Shown in pieces: positions 11,774-36,322 of a stretch of 36,654 nucleotides of DNA (the stretch's first letter is position 1; each line of letters begins with the position of its first letter). This DNA comes from Patescibacteria group bacterium (GTDB taxonomy: Bacteria; Patescibacteriota; Patescibacteriia; Patescibacteriales; WJLG01), in assembly GCA_028716485.1 (NCBI GenBank), contig JAQUPS010000010.1:16346-52999 (forward strand), in the 5' to 3' direction. The translations under genes were made by a program, and so were the position numbers. Under the pieces are notes generated by a model, which was not told the origin of the DNA, did no database searches, and saw only the letters and a program-made list of their open reading frames with translations.

Positions 11774-14551
11774 TTATTTGGAAAAATATTTCTTGGCCAG
11801 CCAGCCGGCTATAATGATGATTATCCCGCCAGCGGCGATGAGCGTATATATAAGAGGTGATGAATTGTTTTTTGAAGGGGGAATTGTCCAAGCGGAGGAT
11901 CCGGTAGCGGCGCCGAGAACAAGGCCAGCCGAGTCATCGGACGTTGTTGCCAAAATCAAGTCAGCTTGAGAGCGGGGCATAATGGCCAAACCGCCGGAAA
12001 TACCGCTTAATAACCCGACCGCAGTCAATTTTTGTCCGGCCTTGATATTTTTAACGTCAATGTTGGCATTGGTTTTAAAATACACGTTGATATCGGCCTG
12101 GCCGTCAAAGAGCTGCATTTGCTGGCCGGTACGCGATTCGACTTCGCCTTCGGCCTGGACGAATTTTCCCAGATTTTCTTCCTTAAATCCGGCGGCGGTG
12201 ATTTTTTCCGGCTCGCTTAAAACTCCCGACTTGATAATTTTGATATCGGCGGCGGTTTTGGTTTTCAAATACTTATCAGCTTCAGAGCCGCCGATCACGC
12301 CGCTCGCGGAAATCAAATCGCCCAAAGCGAGCGTTGGAAAATTTTTATAATAATTATAAATCTTGACCGCCGGTGAATTGGTGGCGGTCAGAATATAAAA
12401 ATACTGGCTACCGAAAATTCCGGGCAGAACCAGAACTTGGCCGGAAAGCTTGAGGCTGGCGCCAAGCTTATAATTATTTATCGGATGAGCAGAGGCGATT
12501 TTTACAATGGCATTTTTTTCAGCCGCGGCAACGGCTGATGATTTAACCCCGGCAGAATATCCTCCCGCGGCTTGCCCCGGGTTTGCCAAAGGTGATTCTG
12601 CCGTTTTGGTTGCCGTTTTGACTGCCACCTTTTTTTCGCCGGTAATTTTATCAGAGGAACTTTTCGGCAAAGTTAGCGGCTGGTTATTCGCGGAAATATT
12701 TTCATCTGTCGCGCCGCCGACAGCCAAAGCAACTCCGCCGACCTTGATGATCTTTTTCAAAGTCGCGGTTTCATTGCCGTCGCTGGCCGCTAATTTAATC
12801 GTATAATTTCCCGGCTTGATAAAAATATGGCTGGGGGTTTCAAAATTGAATTGCCCGCCATCGCCGAAATCCCAGGAAAAAGTCAGCGGGTCGCCGTCTT
12901 CGTCAAAACTGTCCGAGGCATCAAAGCTAACCGCCGCGCCGGTATTGATTTTTTCCGGCGTGGAAAAGCTGACGATCGGCGCGTGGTTGGGAGTTTTAAT
13001 CTGGTTGGCCGCGCCCGGGGTGGAAATTTCACTCCAAACCCAGCGGTTAAGCATTAACGAATTATTTAAAAAAGTTTTGGTCGCGCCGTTCGCATTTTTC
13101 AAATCAAGATTAAGCGTATCGCAATAGCTCAAGCCTTCCGCGGCCTCGCCGTATTGCAGGCTTTGCGCGGCGCGGCTTTTTGAGGGCGCGTATAATTTTA
13201 TTGTCCCGCCGTTATTATCTAAGACCAGATTGCTGTCAGCGCGCTTCAGCGTGAAATATCCGTACGCGGGAACAATGCCGGTTAAATTAAAATATTTGCC
13301 GAATTCAAAACTGCGGCCGCCCTCGATTTCAATCCGCCAGCCGGCCAAGTCAACCGCCGCGGCCGAGTTATTATAAAGCTCAATAAATTCTCCCTCCCGG
13401 TCAGAGCCGATCGGATTGGGAAAAATTTCCGTGATGGTAATTTTACTTGCGGTCACGCCGCTGGAAGTTGCCGTATCATTAATATTTACGGCGACCGGCG
13501 CGGAAATAATATTTGTTTTGCCTTTGGTCGGAGAATCAGTGAGAGCGTAGCTGTCTTTGTCGAATAATTCTTTCCGTCCGTCGCTTGGCAAGGCGGCCGA
13601 TTGGCCTTTACCCGGAGCAGGCGCGTTATTTTCCGGATGTTCGCCGTATTTTCCATAAACGGCTTTGTCAATCAAATTATGCGTATCGCTGTATAAAATA
13701 ATTTCATCGCCGTCGTTATTCAGCGCGCCCTTGAATTTTTCCGCGACAAAAAAATAATAATTGTTTTCATTAAAGCCCCCGGACAATGGCGTTTCCGCGC
13801 CCGAACCGTCGGCGATCGTCCAGCCTTCTAAATTTATTTCCCCGCCGCTATGATTGTATAATTCCACCCATTCATTTTCGCCCGTGTTCGGATCGCTGAC
13901 AAATTCATTGATCAGCACATCGCCATAACGATAAATCGGCGCGGAATTGCCGCCGGTTTCCGCCGGTGCCGGCATTGATTCATCCGTTGCCGGACTTTCG
14001 CCGGCGCAATCATTGGCCGCTCCGGGCGTACCGCCAACAACCTGACTAGTGCACCAAGAGCCGTCGGCTTTTCTTTCCATGGTTTGTCTGGTGCCGCTAT
14101 CGCCGAATATCCAGCCCTTGCTACCATCTGCCTTTTTTCCGTTTACTTCATCTATTTTAGTATCGCCGCCGTAAAGCGTTAAATTTTCACCGTCATTGCT
14201 GAGAGCGCCGCAATTATAATCATATAACAAGTCCGCGTCCGGCAACGGAGCAACTGTGCTGACTTTTCTTTCCAGTAAAAAATAACTGTTAGCTGAAATA
14301 TTTCCGCTTAAATTTATTTTCGGCGAACCATCCTCGGCAACGATACTCCAGCCGGTTAAATTAATATTCTGACCGGTTAAATTTTTCAACTCAACCCATT
14401 CGTCGTTAGTGCTTGACGCTCTTCCCATCCAGGCAATTTCATTAATCACGACATCGCCAGACTGAGCTGCCGAACATTTTTGGCCGACAAAAAATCCCGA
14501 GCACAGCAAAACGCCCAAGATTAAAAATATTTTCCCTCCTTTATTTTTCAT
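11774..14551 (-). CDS. Secreted, membrane-anchored lamin-tail/PKD/OB-like multidomain protein
   Basis: The 925-residue protein has a signal peptide ending near SAA29. Three lamin-tail domains follow, starting near 33 (VVINEIAWMG), 209 (DVLINEFVSDPNTGENEWVE) and 369 (ITITEIFPNPIGSDREGEFI). A PKD domain occupies about 520-605 (VSFDASDSFDEDGDPLTFSW, DFGDGG). An OB-fold-like region lies at about 684-870 (LGDLISASGVIGG, VQAEGEVESRTGQQMQLFDG). A C-terminal membrane helix (897-918) ends in KKYFSK. It should be displayed outside the cell. Lamin-tail and OB folds are often found with nucleic acid or nuclease functions, but no nuclease motif is seen. A TTG-led extension of 14 codons is rejected because it overlaps the promoter. 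The gene is divergent from the pilus cluster, so a surface or DNA-uptake role is an inference. Confidence 0.85.
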   Translation of the reverse strand: MKNKGGKIFLILGVLLCSGFFVGQKCSAAQSGDVVINEIAWMGRASSTNDEWVELKNLTGQNINLTGWSIVAEDGSPKINLSGNISANSYFLLERKVSTVAPLPDADLLYDYNCGALSNDGENLTLYGGDTKIDEVNGKKADGSKGWIFGDSGTRQTMERKADGSWCTSQVVGGTPGAANDCAGESPATDESMPAPAETGGNSAPIYRYGDVLINEFVSDPNTGENEWVELYNHSGGEINLEGWTIADGSGAETPLSGGFNENNYYFFVAEKFKGALNNDGDEIILYSDTHNLIDKAVYGKYGEHPENNAPAPGKGQSAALPSDGRKELFDKDSYALTDSPTKGKTNIISAPVAVNINDTATSSGVTASKITITEIFPNPIGSDREGEFIELYNNSAAAVDLAGWRIEIEGGRSFEFGKYFNLTGIVPAYGYFTLKRADSNLVLDNNGGTIKLYAPSKSRAAQSLQYGEAAEGLSYCDTLNLDLKNANGATKTFLNNSLMLNRWVWSEISTPGAANQIKTPNHAPIVSFSTPEKINTGAAVSFDASDSFDEDGDPLTFSWDFGDGGQFNFETPSHIFIKPGNYTIKLAASDGNETATLKKIIKVGGVALAVGGATDENISANNQPLTLPKSSSDKITGEKKVAVKTATKTAESPLANPGQAAGGYSAGVKSSAVAAAEKNAIVKIASAHPINNYKLGASLKLSGQVLVLPGIFGSQYFYILTATNSPAVKIYNYYKNFPTLALGDLISASGVIGGSEADKYLKTKTAADIKIIKSGVLSEPEKITAAGFKEENLGKFVQAEGEVESRTGQQMQLFDGQADINVYFKTNANIDVKNIKAGQKLTAVGLLSGISGGLAIMPRSQADLILATTSDDSAGLVLGAATGSSAWTIPPSKNNSSPLIYTLIAAGGIIIIIAGWLAKKYFSK

Positions 14552-14561
14552 AGATAAGAAT

Positions 14562-14590
14562 ATTTTAGCAAAATAAATAATTTCTGTCAT
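14562..14590 (-). promoter_or_regulatory. Promoter of the lamin-tail gene giving an almost leaderless mRNA
   Basis: On the minus strand ATGACA (14585-14590) and TAAAAT (14562-14567) are 17 bases apart, each one mismatch from consensus. A TG dinucleotide lies at the extended -10 position. The ATG is only 10 bases beyond the -10, so the transcript would have a leader of a few nucleotides. This fixes the gene start at 14551. Confidence 0.72.
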
Positions 14591-14664
14591 CAATTAATTA
14601 CCCAACCTCATTCCAAAAAGATATTAATAACAATTTTATTATAATTTTATATTAATTTCCTTGC

Positions 14665-16717: not shown

Positions 16718-17863
16718 ATGCCTGTTATCGAACCCGACAATAAAATAAACCCGCAAGACTTGGGCCGGGCGAAGGCGGAAAAAAAATCTTTTTCTCAATC
16801 GCTGAAAAATTTTTTCCTGAATCTGCTGAGCGTCAGTCCCAAAGAAAAACTGGTCTTTATCCAGAATCTTTCGGTAATGATCAAGGCCGGCATTCCGGTG
16901 CTCACCTCCTTCCGCACCCTGGCTGAACAAAGCGAGAGTAAAACATTCGCCCGTATTCTGAAACAAGTCGCTCTCAAATTAGAGCAAGGCTCCACTCTGG
17001 CCGACAGCTTGAAAATGTATCCCCGGACCTTTAACGAACTTTTTATCAATATGATCGACGCGGGAGAAATGTCGGGCAAATTGGAAGAAGCGCTCGGGCA
17101 GCTTTATGTACAAATCAAAAAACAATACGAGCTTACTTCGCGCATCAAAGGCGCGCTGATCTATCCGGTAATCGTCGTGGCCGCTATGATCGGCATCGGA
17201 ATTTTTATGATGATCTTCGTCATTCCTAAAATAACTTCGGTTTTTACCGAAAGCAACGTCCCACTGCCGCTTTTCACCAGAATATTGATCGACATCAGTA
17301 ATTTCTTGGCCAATAACTGGATGGCTTCCTCAATCATCGCCGCGGTCTTGATTTTGGCGATCTGTAAAATTATGAGTACGGAAAAGGGCAAATACACTTT
17401 CCAGGGGCTGGTTTTGCGGATGCCGATTTTCGGACCGATTGCCAAGAAGATCAATCTGGCTCGTTTTTCGCGGACCGCCGGCTCGCTGCTGAAAACCGAT
17501 ATTATGATCGTCAACGCTTTCCGGATTACCGCCAACGTGGTCACCAATCTTCATTATCGCCGCGCCATTATGGAAATCAGCGAACAGATAAAAAAGGGCG
17601 GGCAGATAAATGAAATCATCAAAAATTATCCTAAATTTTTTCCGCCGATGGTGACGCAAATGATAGCGGTCGGCGAGCAAACCGGCGAGGTGAGCAGCAT
17701 CCTGACTGACTTGGCGGAATTTTATGAAGGCGAAGTCGACCAAATAATGCAAAATCTTCCTTCGATCATCGAGCCGCTTTTAATCTTGCTGCTCGGCCTT
17801 GGCGTCGGCGCGATCGCCATTGCCATTATTATGCCGATGTATTCTTTAACATCAGTCATCTAA
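16718..17863 (+). CDS. pilC: Type IV pilus inner-membrane platform protein PilC (GspF family)
   Basis: PilC is the polytopic membrane platform on which PilB acts. The 381-residue length is typical. Two repeated GspF domains are visible. The first begins near residue 45 (FIQNLSVMIKAGIPVLTSFRTLAEQ) and carries the INMIDAGEMSGKLEEAL signature. The second begins near 245 (INLARFSRTAGSLLKTDIMI) and carries VTQMIAVGEQTGEVSSIL. Membrane helices lie at about 147-172, 200-220 and the C-terminus (LLILLLGLGVGAIAIAIIMPMY). The ATG has no Shine-Dalgarno, and the upstream 40 bases are AT-rich word repeats. Confidence 0.95.
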   Translation: MPVIEPDNKINPQDLGRAKAEKKSFSQSLKNFFLNLLSVSPKEKLVFIQNLSVMIKAGIPVLTSFRTLAEQSESKTFARILKQVALKLEQGSTLADSLKMYPRTFNELFINMIDAGEMSGKLEEALGQLYVQIKKQYELTSRIKGALIYPVIVVAAMIGIGIFMMIFVIPKITSVFTESNVPLPLFTRILIDISNFLANNWMASSIIAAVLILAICKIMSTEKGKYTFQGLVLRMPIFGPIAKKINLARFSRTAGSLLKTDIMIVNAFRITANVVTNLHYRRAIMEISEQIKKGGQINEIIKNYPKFFPPMVTQMIAVGEQTGEVSSILTDLAEFYEGEVDQIMQNLPSIIEPLLILLLGLGVGAIAIAIIMPMYSLTSVI

Positions 17864-17950
17864 TTTAACGCGACACATAACACGGCAAGCGGAGGATTTT
17901 CTTCTATAAATAAACTTTGTACATAACCTATAGCCTGCCAAAAAATTGAA

Positions 17951-17979
17951 TTGACAAATCAATTTTTCTTCCTTCATAT
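17951..17979 (+). promoter_or_regulatory. Possible promoter ahead of the heptamer tract
   Basis: A perfect TTGACA (17951-17956) is followed after 17 bases by TCATAT (17974-17979), only three of six to the -10 consensus. If used, transcription would start near 17986. The leader would then be the purine run AAGGGGG followed by the 84-base heptamer tract. The surrounding AAAAATTGA/TCAATTTTT arms could instead be a weak terminator after pilC. Confidence 0.3.
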
Positions 17980-17999
17980 CGGAACGAGCAAGGGGGTCG

Positions 18000-18083
18000 T
18001 TACGTGTTACGTGTTACGTGTTACGTGTTACGTGTTACGTGTTACGTGTTACGTGTTACGTGTTACGTGTTACGTGTTACGTG
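18000..18083 (+). repeat. Twelve perfect tandem TTACGTG heptamers
   Basis: Exactly twelve uninterrupted copies of TTACGTG span 84 bases and run straight into TTATG, which contains the start codon of the prepilin-like gene (ATG 18086). The purine run AAGGGGG at 17990-17996 lies immediately upstream and is the only Shine-Dalgarno-like sequence near. Seven is not a multiple of three, so unit gain or loss would change both RBS-to-ATG spacing and the frame of any upstream start. Reading through it in frame gives repeated VLRVTCY, which is not considered real protein. Confidence 0.95.
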
Positions 18084-18085
18084 TT

Positions 18086-19888
18086 ATGAAAGATAACAAA
18101 TCAAAATCAGGCGACGCCGGTTTTACCCTGATCGAGGCCGTGGTGGGCATCGCCATTTTTTCGTTGATCGCCATCGGAGTCTATGAAACTTTTGCTCAAG
18201 CCAGCCACATGGTGGAAACATCGCGGCTGATGGTAACCGCCGCGGCGCTGGCCAACGAGCAATTTGAAATCGCCCATAATATGCCTTATGCCGATATCGG
18301 CTTGACCGCCGGCTTGCCGAGCGGAAAATTATCGCCCACCCAAAATATCACCCGCGATAATACCGATTTTCTGGTGCAAACGATAGTACAAAACATTGAT
18401 GATCCGTTTGACGGCACTATCGGCGGCAGTCCGAACGATAGCTCGCCGGCCGATTATAAACTGGTAGAAATAAAAATTTCCGCGCCAAGCAATCCGCGCC
18501 TGGCGCCGTTAACCTTTACCGAATATATCGCTCCGAAAAATCTGGAAAATACGACAAACAACGGAGCGCTCTTTGTCCGCGTCTTTGATGCCAACGGCCA
18601 GCCGGTTTCGGAGGCGAACGTCCATATTGCCAATAGCCAAACCTCGCCGATAGTCGGTGTTAACGACACCACCAACAACGATGGTATTCTGCAAATCGTC
18701 GATGTGCCGCCCAGCATACAGAGTTATAAAATTACCGTCAGCAAAAACGGCTATTCCCAAGACCGGACTTATCCAGTCGGGTCTTCAACCAACCCCAATC
18801 CAATCATGCCTGACGCGACAGTAATCGCCCAGCAAGTGACGCAAACCAGTTTTATGATCGACCGCACCGCCACGCTCAATGTCAGCAGCGTGACCGAAAC
18901 TTGCGCGCCGGTAGCCAATATCGGCTTTGACTTGAAAGGCAGCAAGCTGATCGGCTCAACTCCCGACATTTATAAATATCAAAATAGTTTTGACACCGGC
19001 CCCTCGGGAACAAAAGTCATCGACAGTCTGGAATGGGACGCTTACAATTTAACCTTCAACGACAGTACGCATGATTTGGGCGGAGCGATTTCGCCGGTCC
19101 TTTTCAGCCTGACGCCCGGCAGCGTCCAGGACGTAAAAATTATCGCGGTTCCCAAAAATCCCCGCAGTCTTCTGGTGAGCGTCAAGCAAGGAGGAACGAC
19201 GCAGCCGCTTTCCGGCGCCACCGTGCAATTAACGATCGGCACTTCCACCAAGCAATTGATTACCGGCCGGGGTTTCTTGCGGCAAAGCGATTGGTCGGGC
19301 GGTTCAGGCCAGGAAAACTTCACTAATCCGGCCGCCTTTTACAGTTCTGACGGAAATATTGAAACCGCCGACCCGGCCGGCGAAATCAAGCTTAAAGAAG
19401 CTTTCGGCCTATACGCCGCGGCCGGAAACCTGACATCTTCGACTTTCGATACCGGCTCGGCCAGCGACTTTTACCGGCTGGAATTTTTGCCGCTGGACCA
19501 GCCGCCGGAAGCCGGCACCAGCAGCGTCCTGCTCCAAGTCGCCGCCAATAATGATAATTCAACTTGGAACTTCTTGGGCCCGGACGGCACTAACGCGACC
19601 TTTTATTCCGCGGCCAACGGCAATATCAATCCGATCAATAACGGCAACCGCTACTTGCGTTATAAAATTTATTTGGCCACTGCCAGTTCCACCTATACGC
19701 CCAACGTCGGCGAAGTCAGCTTTGCTTTCACTTCGCTTTGCGTCCCGCCCGGGCAGGTGCTATTCGACGGATTGGCCGAGGGCGACTACACGCTTAATGT
19801 TTCCAAATCCGGCTTTCAACCCAGCGAGGGAACGATTCATATTTCCGACCCCTCGAATCAGCAAGAAGTTATCTTAATGCCGGAATAA
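18086..19888 (+). CDS. Prepilin-like protein with a large C-terminal beta-rich domain
   Basis: The ATG at 18086 gives a 600-residue protein with a class III signal, AG12|FTLIEAVVGIAIFSLIAI. Cleavage after Gly12 would leave Phe1 and Glu5, the classical prepilin pattern, followed by the hydrophobic pilin helix. It is far larger than a major pilin. A carboxypeptidase-regulatory-like beta domain is visible in the middle (VRVFDANGQPVSEANVHIAN, ITVSKNGYSQDRTYP), and a similar motif appears at the C-terminus (GLAEGDYTLNVSKSGFQPSE). A minor pilin or tip adhesin is the natural reading. A longer frame from a TTG at 17951 passes through the heptamer tract and is rejected. The next prepilin gene starts 5 bases after the stop. 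Confidence 0.85.
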   Translation: MKDNKSKSGDAGFTLIEAVVGIAIFSLIAIGVYETFAQASHMVETSRLMVTAAALANEQFEIAHNMPYADIGLTAGLPSGKLSPTQNITRDNTDFLVQTIVQNIDDPFDGTIGGSPNDSSPADYKLVEIKISAPSNPRLAPLTFTEYIAPKNLENTTNNGALFVRVFDANGQPVSEANVHIANSQTSPIVGVNDTTNNDGILQIVDVPPSIQSYKITVSKNGYSQDRTYPVGSSTNPNPIMPDATVIAQQVTQTSFMIDRTATLNVSSVTETCAPVANIGFDLKGSKLIGSTPDIYKYQNSFDTGPSGTKVIDSLEWDAYNLTFNDSTHDLGGAISPVLFSLTPGSVQDVKIIAVPKNPRSLLVSVKQGGTTQPLSGATVQLTIGTSTKQLITGRGFLRQSDWSGGSGQENFTNPAAFYSSDGNIETADPAGEIKLKEAFGLYAAAGNLTSSTFDTGSASDFYRLEFLPLDQPPEAGTSSVLLQVAANNDNSTWNFLGPDGTNATFYSAANGNINPINNGNRYLRYKIYLATASSTYTPNVGEVSFAFTSLCVPPGQVLFDGLAEGDYTLNVSKSGFQPSEGTIHISDPSNQQEVILMPE

Positions 19889-27689: not shown

Positions 27690-27729
27690 AAATTCGTATT
27701 TCGTATTTGGTATTTCGTATCTCGTATTT
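27690..27729. repeat. Iterated (C/G)GTATTT words in a divergent promoter region
   Basis: TTCGTATTTCGTATTTGGTA continues into TTTCGTATCTCGTATTTTG, giving five degenerate copies of an 8-base word. It sits directly upstream of the flippase start, in the place of a leader. It is the same style of word iteration as other gaps here, but simpler. Confidence 0.65.
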
Positions 27730-31359: not shown

Positions 31360-31398
31360 AAGTCGCCTTGTCCTTTGCCCGATTCTGGCTTCAAAAAT

Positions 31399-31460
31399 GT
31401 AGTATGCAGTATGTAGTATGGCGCATGGGAGATAGCCCCATACTACATACTGCTTACTAC
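31399..31460. repeat. GTAGTATG word hairpin between clpP and trpS
   Basis: The 23-base arm at 31399-31421 (GTAGTATGCAGTATGTAGTA then TGG) is complementary to 31438-31460 at 22 of 23 positions, with a 16-base loop. Each arm is itself three degenerate copies of GTAGTAT. It sits in the divergent region between the clpP and trpS promoters. Confidence 0.85.
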
Positions 31461-31486
31461 TTACTACAATAATCCTGCTTTTCCCC

Positions 31487-34365: not shown

Positions 34366-34527
34366 GAGCTCATCTTGAAAATAATTTCCGGCCGATTTGG
34401 CGCTAAACGGCCTAAAAATTATTCATCGCTCGTCGAAATATCAACCGATATTCCTTCTCGCGCTTCATAATTTTTCGGCTCGTTTATCATCCAAATCGCC
34501 TATGAAAACTATTTTCAAGATGAGCTC
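34366..34527. repeat. 162-bp nested inverted-repeat domain in the 16S intron
   Basis: A perfect 18-bp inverted repeat (GAGCTCATCTTGAAAATA at 34366-34383 and its complement at 34510-34527) encloses further nested arms: CGATTTGG/CCAAATCG, AAAAATTAT/ATAATTTTT and AATATC/GATATT around an AACC loop at the centre. The whole folds into one long peripheral hairpin near the intron's 5' end. Confidence 0.85.
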
Positions 34528-34746
34528 GAATTAACCTGCTCGGCGCAGATTTTGTGAGTACAAGACCCGAGAACGTATTCACCGAACCGTGGCTGATGTT
34601 CGATTACTAGCGATTCCGGCTTCATGAGGGCGAGTTGCAGCCCTCAATCCGAATTGGGGGGAATTTTTTGGGATTTGCTCCGCATTACTGCTTGGCGTCC
34701 CTTTGTATTCCCCATTGTAGCATGTGTGTCGCCCAAGGTGTAAGAA

Positions 34747-34780
<34 letters not shown>

Positions 34781-34854
34781 CATTTAAAACGGGCAGTCTC
34801 CCATGACATATAAAACATGGGATAGGGGTTGCGCTCGTTGTCCGACTTAACGGT

Positions 34855-34891
<37 letters not shown>

Positions 34892-34972
34892 TCTGTCTAG
34901 CACCCTCGAAGGCTTTCCTGTTTCCAGGAAATGCAGCTAGATGTCAAACCTTGGTGAGGTTCCTCGCTTATT

Positions 34973-35016
<44 letters not shown>

Positions 35017-35834
35017 TATTCCTTTGAGTTTTAAACTTGCGTTCGTACTACCCAGGCGGAATGCTTAACGTGTTAACTTAAAAGTGCAGCACTGGAGGGG
35101 TCGAAACCTCCAATACTCAGCATTCAACGTTTAAGGCGTGGACTACTAGGGTATCTAATCCTATTCGCTACCCACGCTTTAGTACCTCAGTGTCAGAACC
35201 GTCCTAGCAAACTGCCTTCGCATTTGGTGTTCTTGTTGATATTAACGGATTTAACCCCTACACCAACAATTCCGTTTGCCTCTTCCGGTCTCTAGTCTGG
35301 CCATCTCTTTCGCGGCCCCGAGGTTAAGCCTCGGGATTTAACGAAAGATGCGCCAAACCACCTACGTACCCTTTACGCCCAATAAATCCGGATAACGCTT
35401 GGAGCCCTCGTATTACCGCCGCTGCTGGCACGAGGTTAGCGGCTCCTTATTCCTCTGGTAAAGTCAAAATTCGTCCCAGAGAAAAGTATTTTACACTCCG
35501 AAGAGCTTCATCATACACGCGGCGTCGCTCCCTCAGCCTTTCGGCCATTGGGGAAGATTCTTGACTGCAGCCTCCCGTAGGAGTCTGGACAGTGTCTCAG
35601 TTCCAGTGAGGCGGGTCACGCTCTCGCGCCCGCTACTCGTCTTAGCCTTGGTGGGCTTTTACTCCGCCAACTAGCTGATGAGCCATAGGCCCCTCTCGAA
35701 GGGATAAATCTTTAAATGGGAATGACATACGTCCCCCCATCATCATCGGGTATTATTCCAGCTTTCGCCGGATTATCCCCGTCTTCGAGGTAGGTTACCA
35801 ATGTGTTACGCACCCGTTTGCCATGTCGCACCTT

Positions 35835-36095
35835 TTAGCTTTCATTAATTGAGTTTAACAGACGTCTTTTTAAATGCGCCCAAACTTTTCCATGATGCTT
35901 CAGCTGTTTTTCTCTTTCTTGCGCATCAATTTTGGAACGATACGATTCATAATAAACCAAATTCCACGGCTTGTACCTGTTCGTGTAATTTGATTTACCA
36001 GAATTGTGTTCGGCCATTCTCTGTTTTAGATCTGTTGAGTACCCAATATAAATATCGCCATTCACCTTGCTTTTTATTGCATAGACATAATACAT
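35835..36095 (-). CDS. GIY-YIG endonuclease encoded inside the 16S V1 loop
   Basis: The 86-residue protein is a minimal GIY-YIG domain. YYVYAIKS (2-9) and IYIGYS (15-20) are the two motif strands, followed by the catalytic-type Arg (LKQRMAEHNSGKS) and Glu (AQEREKQLK). The sequence (TNRYKPWNLVYYESY) is like the small YhbQ/UvrC-N-type proteins common in Patescibacteria. It has no extra DNA-binding domain, so homing specificity is uncertain. Its stop codon TAA lies within the 24-bp inverted repeat (AGCTAAAAGG), so the gene and the rRNA stem share bases. The ORF is in the rRNA sense. Confidence 0.92.
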   Translation of the reverse strand: MYYVYAIKSKVNGDIYIGYSTDLKQRMAEHNSGKSNYTNRYKPWNLVYYESYRSKIDAQEREKQLKHHGKVWAHLKRRLLNSINES

Positions 36096-36101
36096 AATAA
36101 A

Positions 36102-36110
36102 ATTGTATCA
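36102..36110 (-). promoter_or_regulatory. Possible internal promoter of the GIY-YIG gene
   Basis: The minus strand reads TGATACAAT, an extended -10 with one mismatch, six bases before the ATG at 36095. Transcription would begin at the start codon itself, giving a leaderless mRNA independent of the rRNA promoter. There is no recognisable -35. Confidence 0.4.
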
Positions 36111-36160
36111 CGCCATGAATAAAAGCTAAAAGGTGCGACATTCGACTTGCATGCCTTAGA

Positions 36161-36322
<162 letters not shown>

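Follow-up and report, generated by a model that had tools for sequence, protein, structure and literature searches.

A heptamer tract at the start of a prepilin-like gene is probably the expanded arm of a dispersed intergenic inverted-repeat element

The perfect heptamer tract that runs into the start codon of a prepilin-like gene in the window, the whole 36,654-nt stretch of DNA analyzed here, probably belongs to a non-coding element with heptamer-armed inverted repeats that is dispersed among intergenic sites. The tract would form the expanded right arm of one such copy, situated between pilC and the prepilin gene. The host appears to be a Candidatus Paceibacterota bacterium. The elements are composite and occur at dispersed sites, neighboring heptamer arrays are mostly paired as inverted complements with a polarity that is nearly fixed for each unit family, the arrays are not conserved between congeners, and the orthologous junction in a congener is near-empty. 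We interpret the array before the pilin gene as a heptamer arm that is prone to slippage and turns over rapidly, and any effect on pilin translation would be incidental and secondary to this.

Results

Geometry of the tract and the leader

Twelve TTACGTG units, all perfect, occupy positions 18000-18083 between a Shine-Dalgarno (SD)-like purine run, AAGGGGG (17990-17996), and the ATG of the prepilin-like gene, as the first-pass annotation had described. The full perfect period-7 run, flanking partial units included, extends over 88 nt on the plus strand (17999-18086; TRF, 100% matches, 12.6 copies), while in first-order shuffles of the window (n = 100) period-7 runs reached 18 nt at most. The closing TTA of the run joins a TG to give TTATG, and thus the repeat itself supplies the A of the start codon (18086-18088). 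Deletion of the twelve units would leave AAGGGGG-TCGTT-ATG, the 5-nt spacing that the same annotation had noted. The gene (18086-19888, plus strand) encodes a 600-aa protein with an N_methyl leader and a CarboxypepD_reg-like domain by Pfam and directly follows pilB (T2SSE) and pilC (T2SSF; 16718-17863, plus strand) in a pilB-pilC-pilin-pilMNO cluster; its ATG is corroborated by the congener G001, whose ortholog starts at the equivalent residue and shares 70% identity. Next to the pilus cluster, the minus strand encodes a protein of 939 aa that carries Lamin Tail and PKD domains (11774-14593).

Since GTG closes every TTACGTG unit and the first GTG (18004-18006) lies 7 nt downstream of AAGGGGG, the purine run is already served by a well-placed alternative start in the first unit. 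The outcome of that frame depends on the copy number n: with n mod 3 = 0 it reaches a stop 11 nt beyond the A of the ATG, with n mod 3 = 1 it stops in ATGA, and with n mod 3 = 2 it is fused in frame to the pilin; the mature pilin is lost in none of these cases. AAGGGGG can pair with CCUCCUU with one G-U, and A/T-rich sequence stands at its position in other copies of the element. The 16S rRNA gene in the window (34515-36206, minus strand) ends in a 3′ tail, GGATCACCTCCTTT, with the usual CCTCC anti-SD, yet only about 17% of genes outside the array-abutted set have an SD-like motif upstream.

The spacer is one copy of a composite element

The whole 222-nt pilC-pilin spacer (17864-18085, plus strand) can be read as one element copy, of which the tract forms the right arm. 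The left arm is a short, 12-nt inverted heptamer block, ACACATAACACG (17873-17884, plus strand), complementary to the array end together with the start codon (CATAACACG / CGTGTTATG). Between the arms lies a conserved core (17932-17989, plus strand) that includes TTGACA (17951-17956) followed by TTTTTCTTCC and is common to the dispersed copies; the region between core and left arm is longer here than in most of them. The predicted RNA duplex of the left segment with the array reached -26.0 kcal/mol, where the reverse-complement control gave -10.2 kcal/mol, and the predicted fold of the spacer gave z = -2.76. The TTGACA of the core resembles a -35 box, with no consensus -10, and a consensus scan for a sigma-70 promoter at the core returned no passing match. 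An Rfam scan of the window matched the 16S rRNA and no other known RNA family.

The same anatomy, an inverted CATAACACG-type block, a TTGACA...TTTTTCTTCC core and a forward TTACGTG-type array, recurs at eight or more sites in the sampled part of the genome and once in the sampled part of G001. The right arms range from roughly one to 16 units, at what are paralogous loci rather than alleles. An nhmmer core profile that excluded the window copy still retrieved it (E = 5.7e-5), and a five-copy core profile led to three further copies (L027:8260, L054:11761 and L061:786), all of which have the same heptamers on their flanks. The family thus combines terminal inverted repeats with dispersed homologous copies, as in MITEs. 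Comparison of filled and empty sites gave one clean case, which is near-empty, with a possible target duplication of TT, TA or TTA that is ambiguous among the three. A search for an autonomous partner or matching transposase covered three families, DDE_3, DDE_Tnp_1 and rve, all of them absent from both genomes of the genus; common DDE transposases were accordingly rejected as the mobilizer.

Inverted pairs in intergenic gaps, together with a single Y1_Tnp gene in the genome, might suggest REP/BIME-type palindromes mobilized by a RAYT transposase, and we consider this very improbable. G001 carries arrays without any Y1_Tnp gene, so that a cognate transposase does not accompany the arrays and mobilization by RAYT was rejected, while G021 has three Y1_Tnp genes but lacks period-7 arrays in its sampled stretch. 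The Y1_Tnp protein of the array-carrying genome itself matches strongly over the full Pfam model, as IS200-type genes do.

Period-7 arrays throughout the genome

The genome comprises 1.15 Mb in 28 contigs, of which 715 kb (~62%) was sampled; one third was sampled for G001, its single congener in the comparison, and 12-60 kb for each of the other relatives. Genes were called with a simple home-made finder, giving 84% coding density, and its choice of start codons adds noise to the distance tests below. Perfect tandem arrays in the 715 kb were dominated by period 7, with 49 arrays (43 without near-homopolymer units) built from ~25 different heptamers, and no other period from 2 to 30 exceeded 4 arrays. 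With TRF set permissively, merging left 223 approximate arrays, 194 of them intergenic, and heptamer arrays were present in about a quarter (149 of 544) of the called gaps of at least 20 nt in the sampled sequence. Within the window, a TTCGTAT-family array (27693-27729, plus strand; TRF) lies 4 nt upstream of a polysaccharide-synthesis gene encoded on the minus strand (Pfam), and an inverted pair, ATGTAGT / CATACTA, is situated between genes at 31397-31468 (plus strand). Elsewhere in the genome, a stretch of more than 1 kb without a called gene holds six heptamer arrays (L063, G000:C8, 17166-17979), mostly of the ATCCGAA/TTCGGAT type and in both orientations.

Arrays lay within 15 nt of a start codon in 73 cases, against 43.6 expected in the same gaps (sd 5.0), and equally close to a stop codon in 59, against 43.5 expected (sd 4.7). 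This enrichment on both sides indicates that an array abutting an ATG belongs to a general pattern at both edges of gaps. A scan of 30 array-abutted genes returned envelope and surface-type genes as well as many housekeeping genes, among them ribosomal proteins S20, L18, L14, S19, L2, S4 and L10, SecY, NusG, GreA, HisRS, CTP synthase, TIM and ClpP, which is not the association with surface rather than housekeeping functions seen for contingency genes. In the ribosomal-protein/SecY operon (L061, G000:C7:20001-40000), arrays occur in many gaps (near 2.3, 3.7, 5.4, 6.0, 6.5, 8.3, 11.3 and 12.3 kb), several as inverted-pair hairpins that abut starts. SD-like motifs preceded 1% of array-abutted genes and 17% of other genes, with a background of 6-7%.

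Inverted pairing, polarity and turnover

Neighboring arrays no more than 200 nt apart were inverted complements in 48 of 71 pairs and direct repeats in one; the corresponding counts in G001 were 14 and zero among 20 pairs, and about 9% inverted would be expected if units were paired at random. The order of the two arms is nearly fixed for each unit family (AAATGCT first in 7 of 7 pairs, AAATACG in 5 of 5, AAATTAG in 4 of 4 and 5 of 5, AATATCC in 4 of 4), with AAATCCG, at 1:2, as the exception. The inverted pairs give strong predicted hairpins able to fill stop-to-start gaps, those of the ribosomal-protein operon included. Neighboring inverted pairs were also present in the samples of G007, G003, G051, G034 and G015, and several other families of the order showed no period-7 enrichment within the sequence sampled.

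The pilC-pilin spacer measures 0-5 nt in six of the relatives examined, including G001, where the junction is reduced to 2 nt (TAG TT ATG) without an array and a composite copy lies instead upstream of pilB. In G007, from another family, a TTATGCG-type array of about nine units (L116, G007:C48, 8532-8596) runs into the orthologous pilin start, which may be a coincidence given the high array density of that genome. Inverted heptamers are present at the G003 junction. Among 36 syntenic gaps with arrays in either this genome or G001, nine had arrays in both, and the units were nearly always different.

Discussion

A tract of this kind before a surface-protein gene had suggested a phase-variation switch, in which 7-nt slippage would shift either the SD-to-ATG spacing or the phase of the GTG frame and so turn the pilin on or off. 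Part of that proposal stands, in that a perfect twelve-unit, slippage-prone tract lies in the 5′ leader, AAGGGGG would be well spaced from the ATG in the collapsed form and already precedes the first GTG closely, the GTG frame changes with n mod 3, and a heptamer precedent exists in H. influenzae hmw1A (PMC8262952); expression could be altered through this geometry. What does not hold up is the dedication of the switch to the pilin, because similar arrays abut many housekeeping genes and flank stop codons too, the congener junction lacks the array, SD use is weak in the genome, and the mature pilin survives all three GTG frames. With so many housekeeping genes abutted and SD-like motifs before 1% of array-abutted genes, a switch made for the pilin gene is unlikely, and we give the phase-variation account as a whole only a slim chance. 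The arrays might instead act as regulatory RNA, the paired arms punctuating operons through attenuation, RNA processing or occlusion of start codons, and perhaps replacing SD-based initiation. This would be consistent with the strong predicted hairpins in ribosomal-protein operon gaps, with the enrichment near start codons and the scarcity of SD motifs there, and with the TAACTGA precedent in Beggiatoaceae (PMC4679880). It is nevertheless quite doubtful as the explanation, since the arrays are not shared by most orthologous gaps, units differ between genomes, the stop side is enriched as well, and loss of the SD may be simple displacement by the array.

Replication slippage without any element, in which heptamers would arise from local sequence through a polymerase favoring 7-nt steps, agrees with the exclusive period of 7 and the variety of units, and a previous survey found heptanucleotides to be the commonest repeat class in the majority of SSR-rich genomes (Mrazek et al. 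2007, cited from PMC4679880). It leaves the inverted pairing, the fixed polarity and the shared cores unexplained, and we find it doubtful as a complete account, while slippage probably does account for the growth of arrays inside elements. The reading that we prefer is a dispersed heptamer-armed element. Such an element would have been gained at a 2-nt pilC-pilin junction, its arms would lengthen and shorten through replication slippage in 7-nt steps, and its exact fit between a stop and the next start codon would explain why it is tolerated. Three routes to an effect on the pilin can be envisaged from the sequence: the element may provide its own leader or a promoter-like core, the start codon may be held in a stem by pairing of the left block with the array end, or a GTG-started frame may have its phase set by copy number mod 3. 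More tentatively, the heptamer-armed elements of Paceibacterota might constitute a new class of small intergenic element, both spread and regenerated by a machinery with exact 7-nt steps and fixed polarity, and such elements would remodel the stop-to-start spacers of essential operons; we regard this as possible but hold it with less than even confidence.

Streamlined CPR genomes are expected to contain little repetitive DNA. Here, arrays occupy a substantial share of gaps, those of ribosomal-protein operons included, many are hairpin-paired, and they turn over between congeners, which raises the question of which process generates repeats of exactly 7 nt and how translation is initiated beside them. 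It is also a warning that a striking tract upstream of a surface gene is not necessarily a contingency switch. Searches of the open-access literature returned nothing that dealt with heptamers or inverted repeats in CPR/Patescibacteria.

Comparison with known systems

As small, dispersed, non-coding intergenic inverted-repeat elements, the copies described here resemble REP/BIME/REPIN and MITE elements and differ from them in that their arms are iterated heptamers and no matching transposase was found in the congener. Like the tract before the pilin gene, hmw1A and hmw2A of Haemophilus influenzae have a 7-bp tract upstream of a surface-protein gene, and more ATCTTTC repeats lower the expression of hmw1A (PMC8262952); allele variation and an effect on expression are proven there, whereas the present tract is known from sequence and is one member of a genome-wide family. 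Intergenic heptamer repeats whose length varies between close relatives also occur in Xanthomonas and Nostoc (PMC4692102, which cites the same for tandem heptanucleotides of cyanobacteria), with G-rich, G-quadruplex-type units in place of the A/T-rich inverted arms observed here. Slippage in 7-nt steps is itself a published proposal for heptanucleotide repeats generally, as described in PMC4679880 and PMC4692102. A further counterpart is found in the TAACTGA repeats of Beggiatoaceae (MacGregor 2015, PMC4679880), which are likewise intergenic tandem heptamers, often just upstream of starts, ribosomal-protein genes included, in a setting where SD motifs are rare. Those repeats consist of one unit in 2-6 copies, almost only as direct repeats, whereas the present arrays comprise many different units in up to 16 copies, mostly as inverted pairs of near-fixed polarity.
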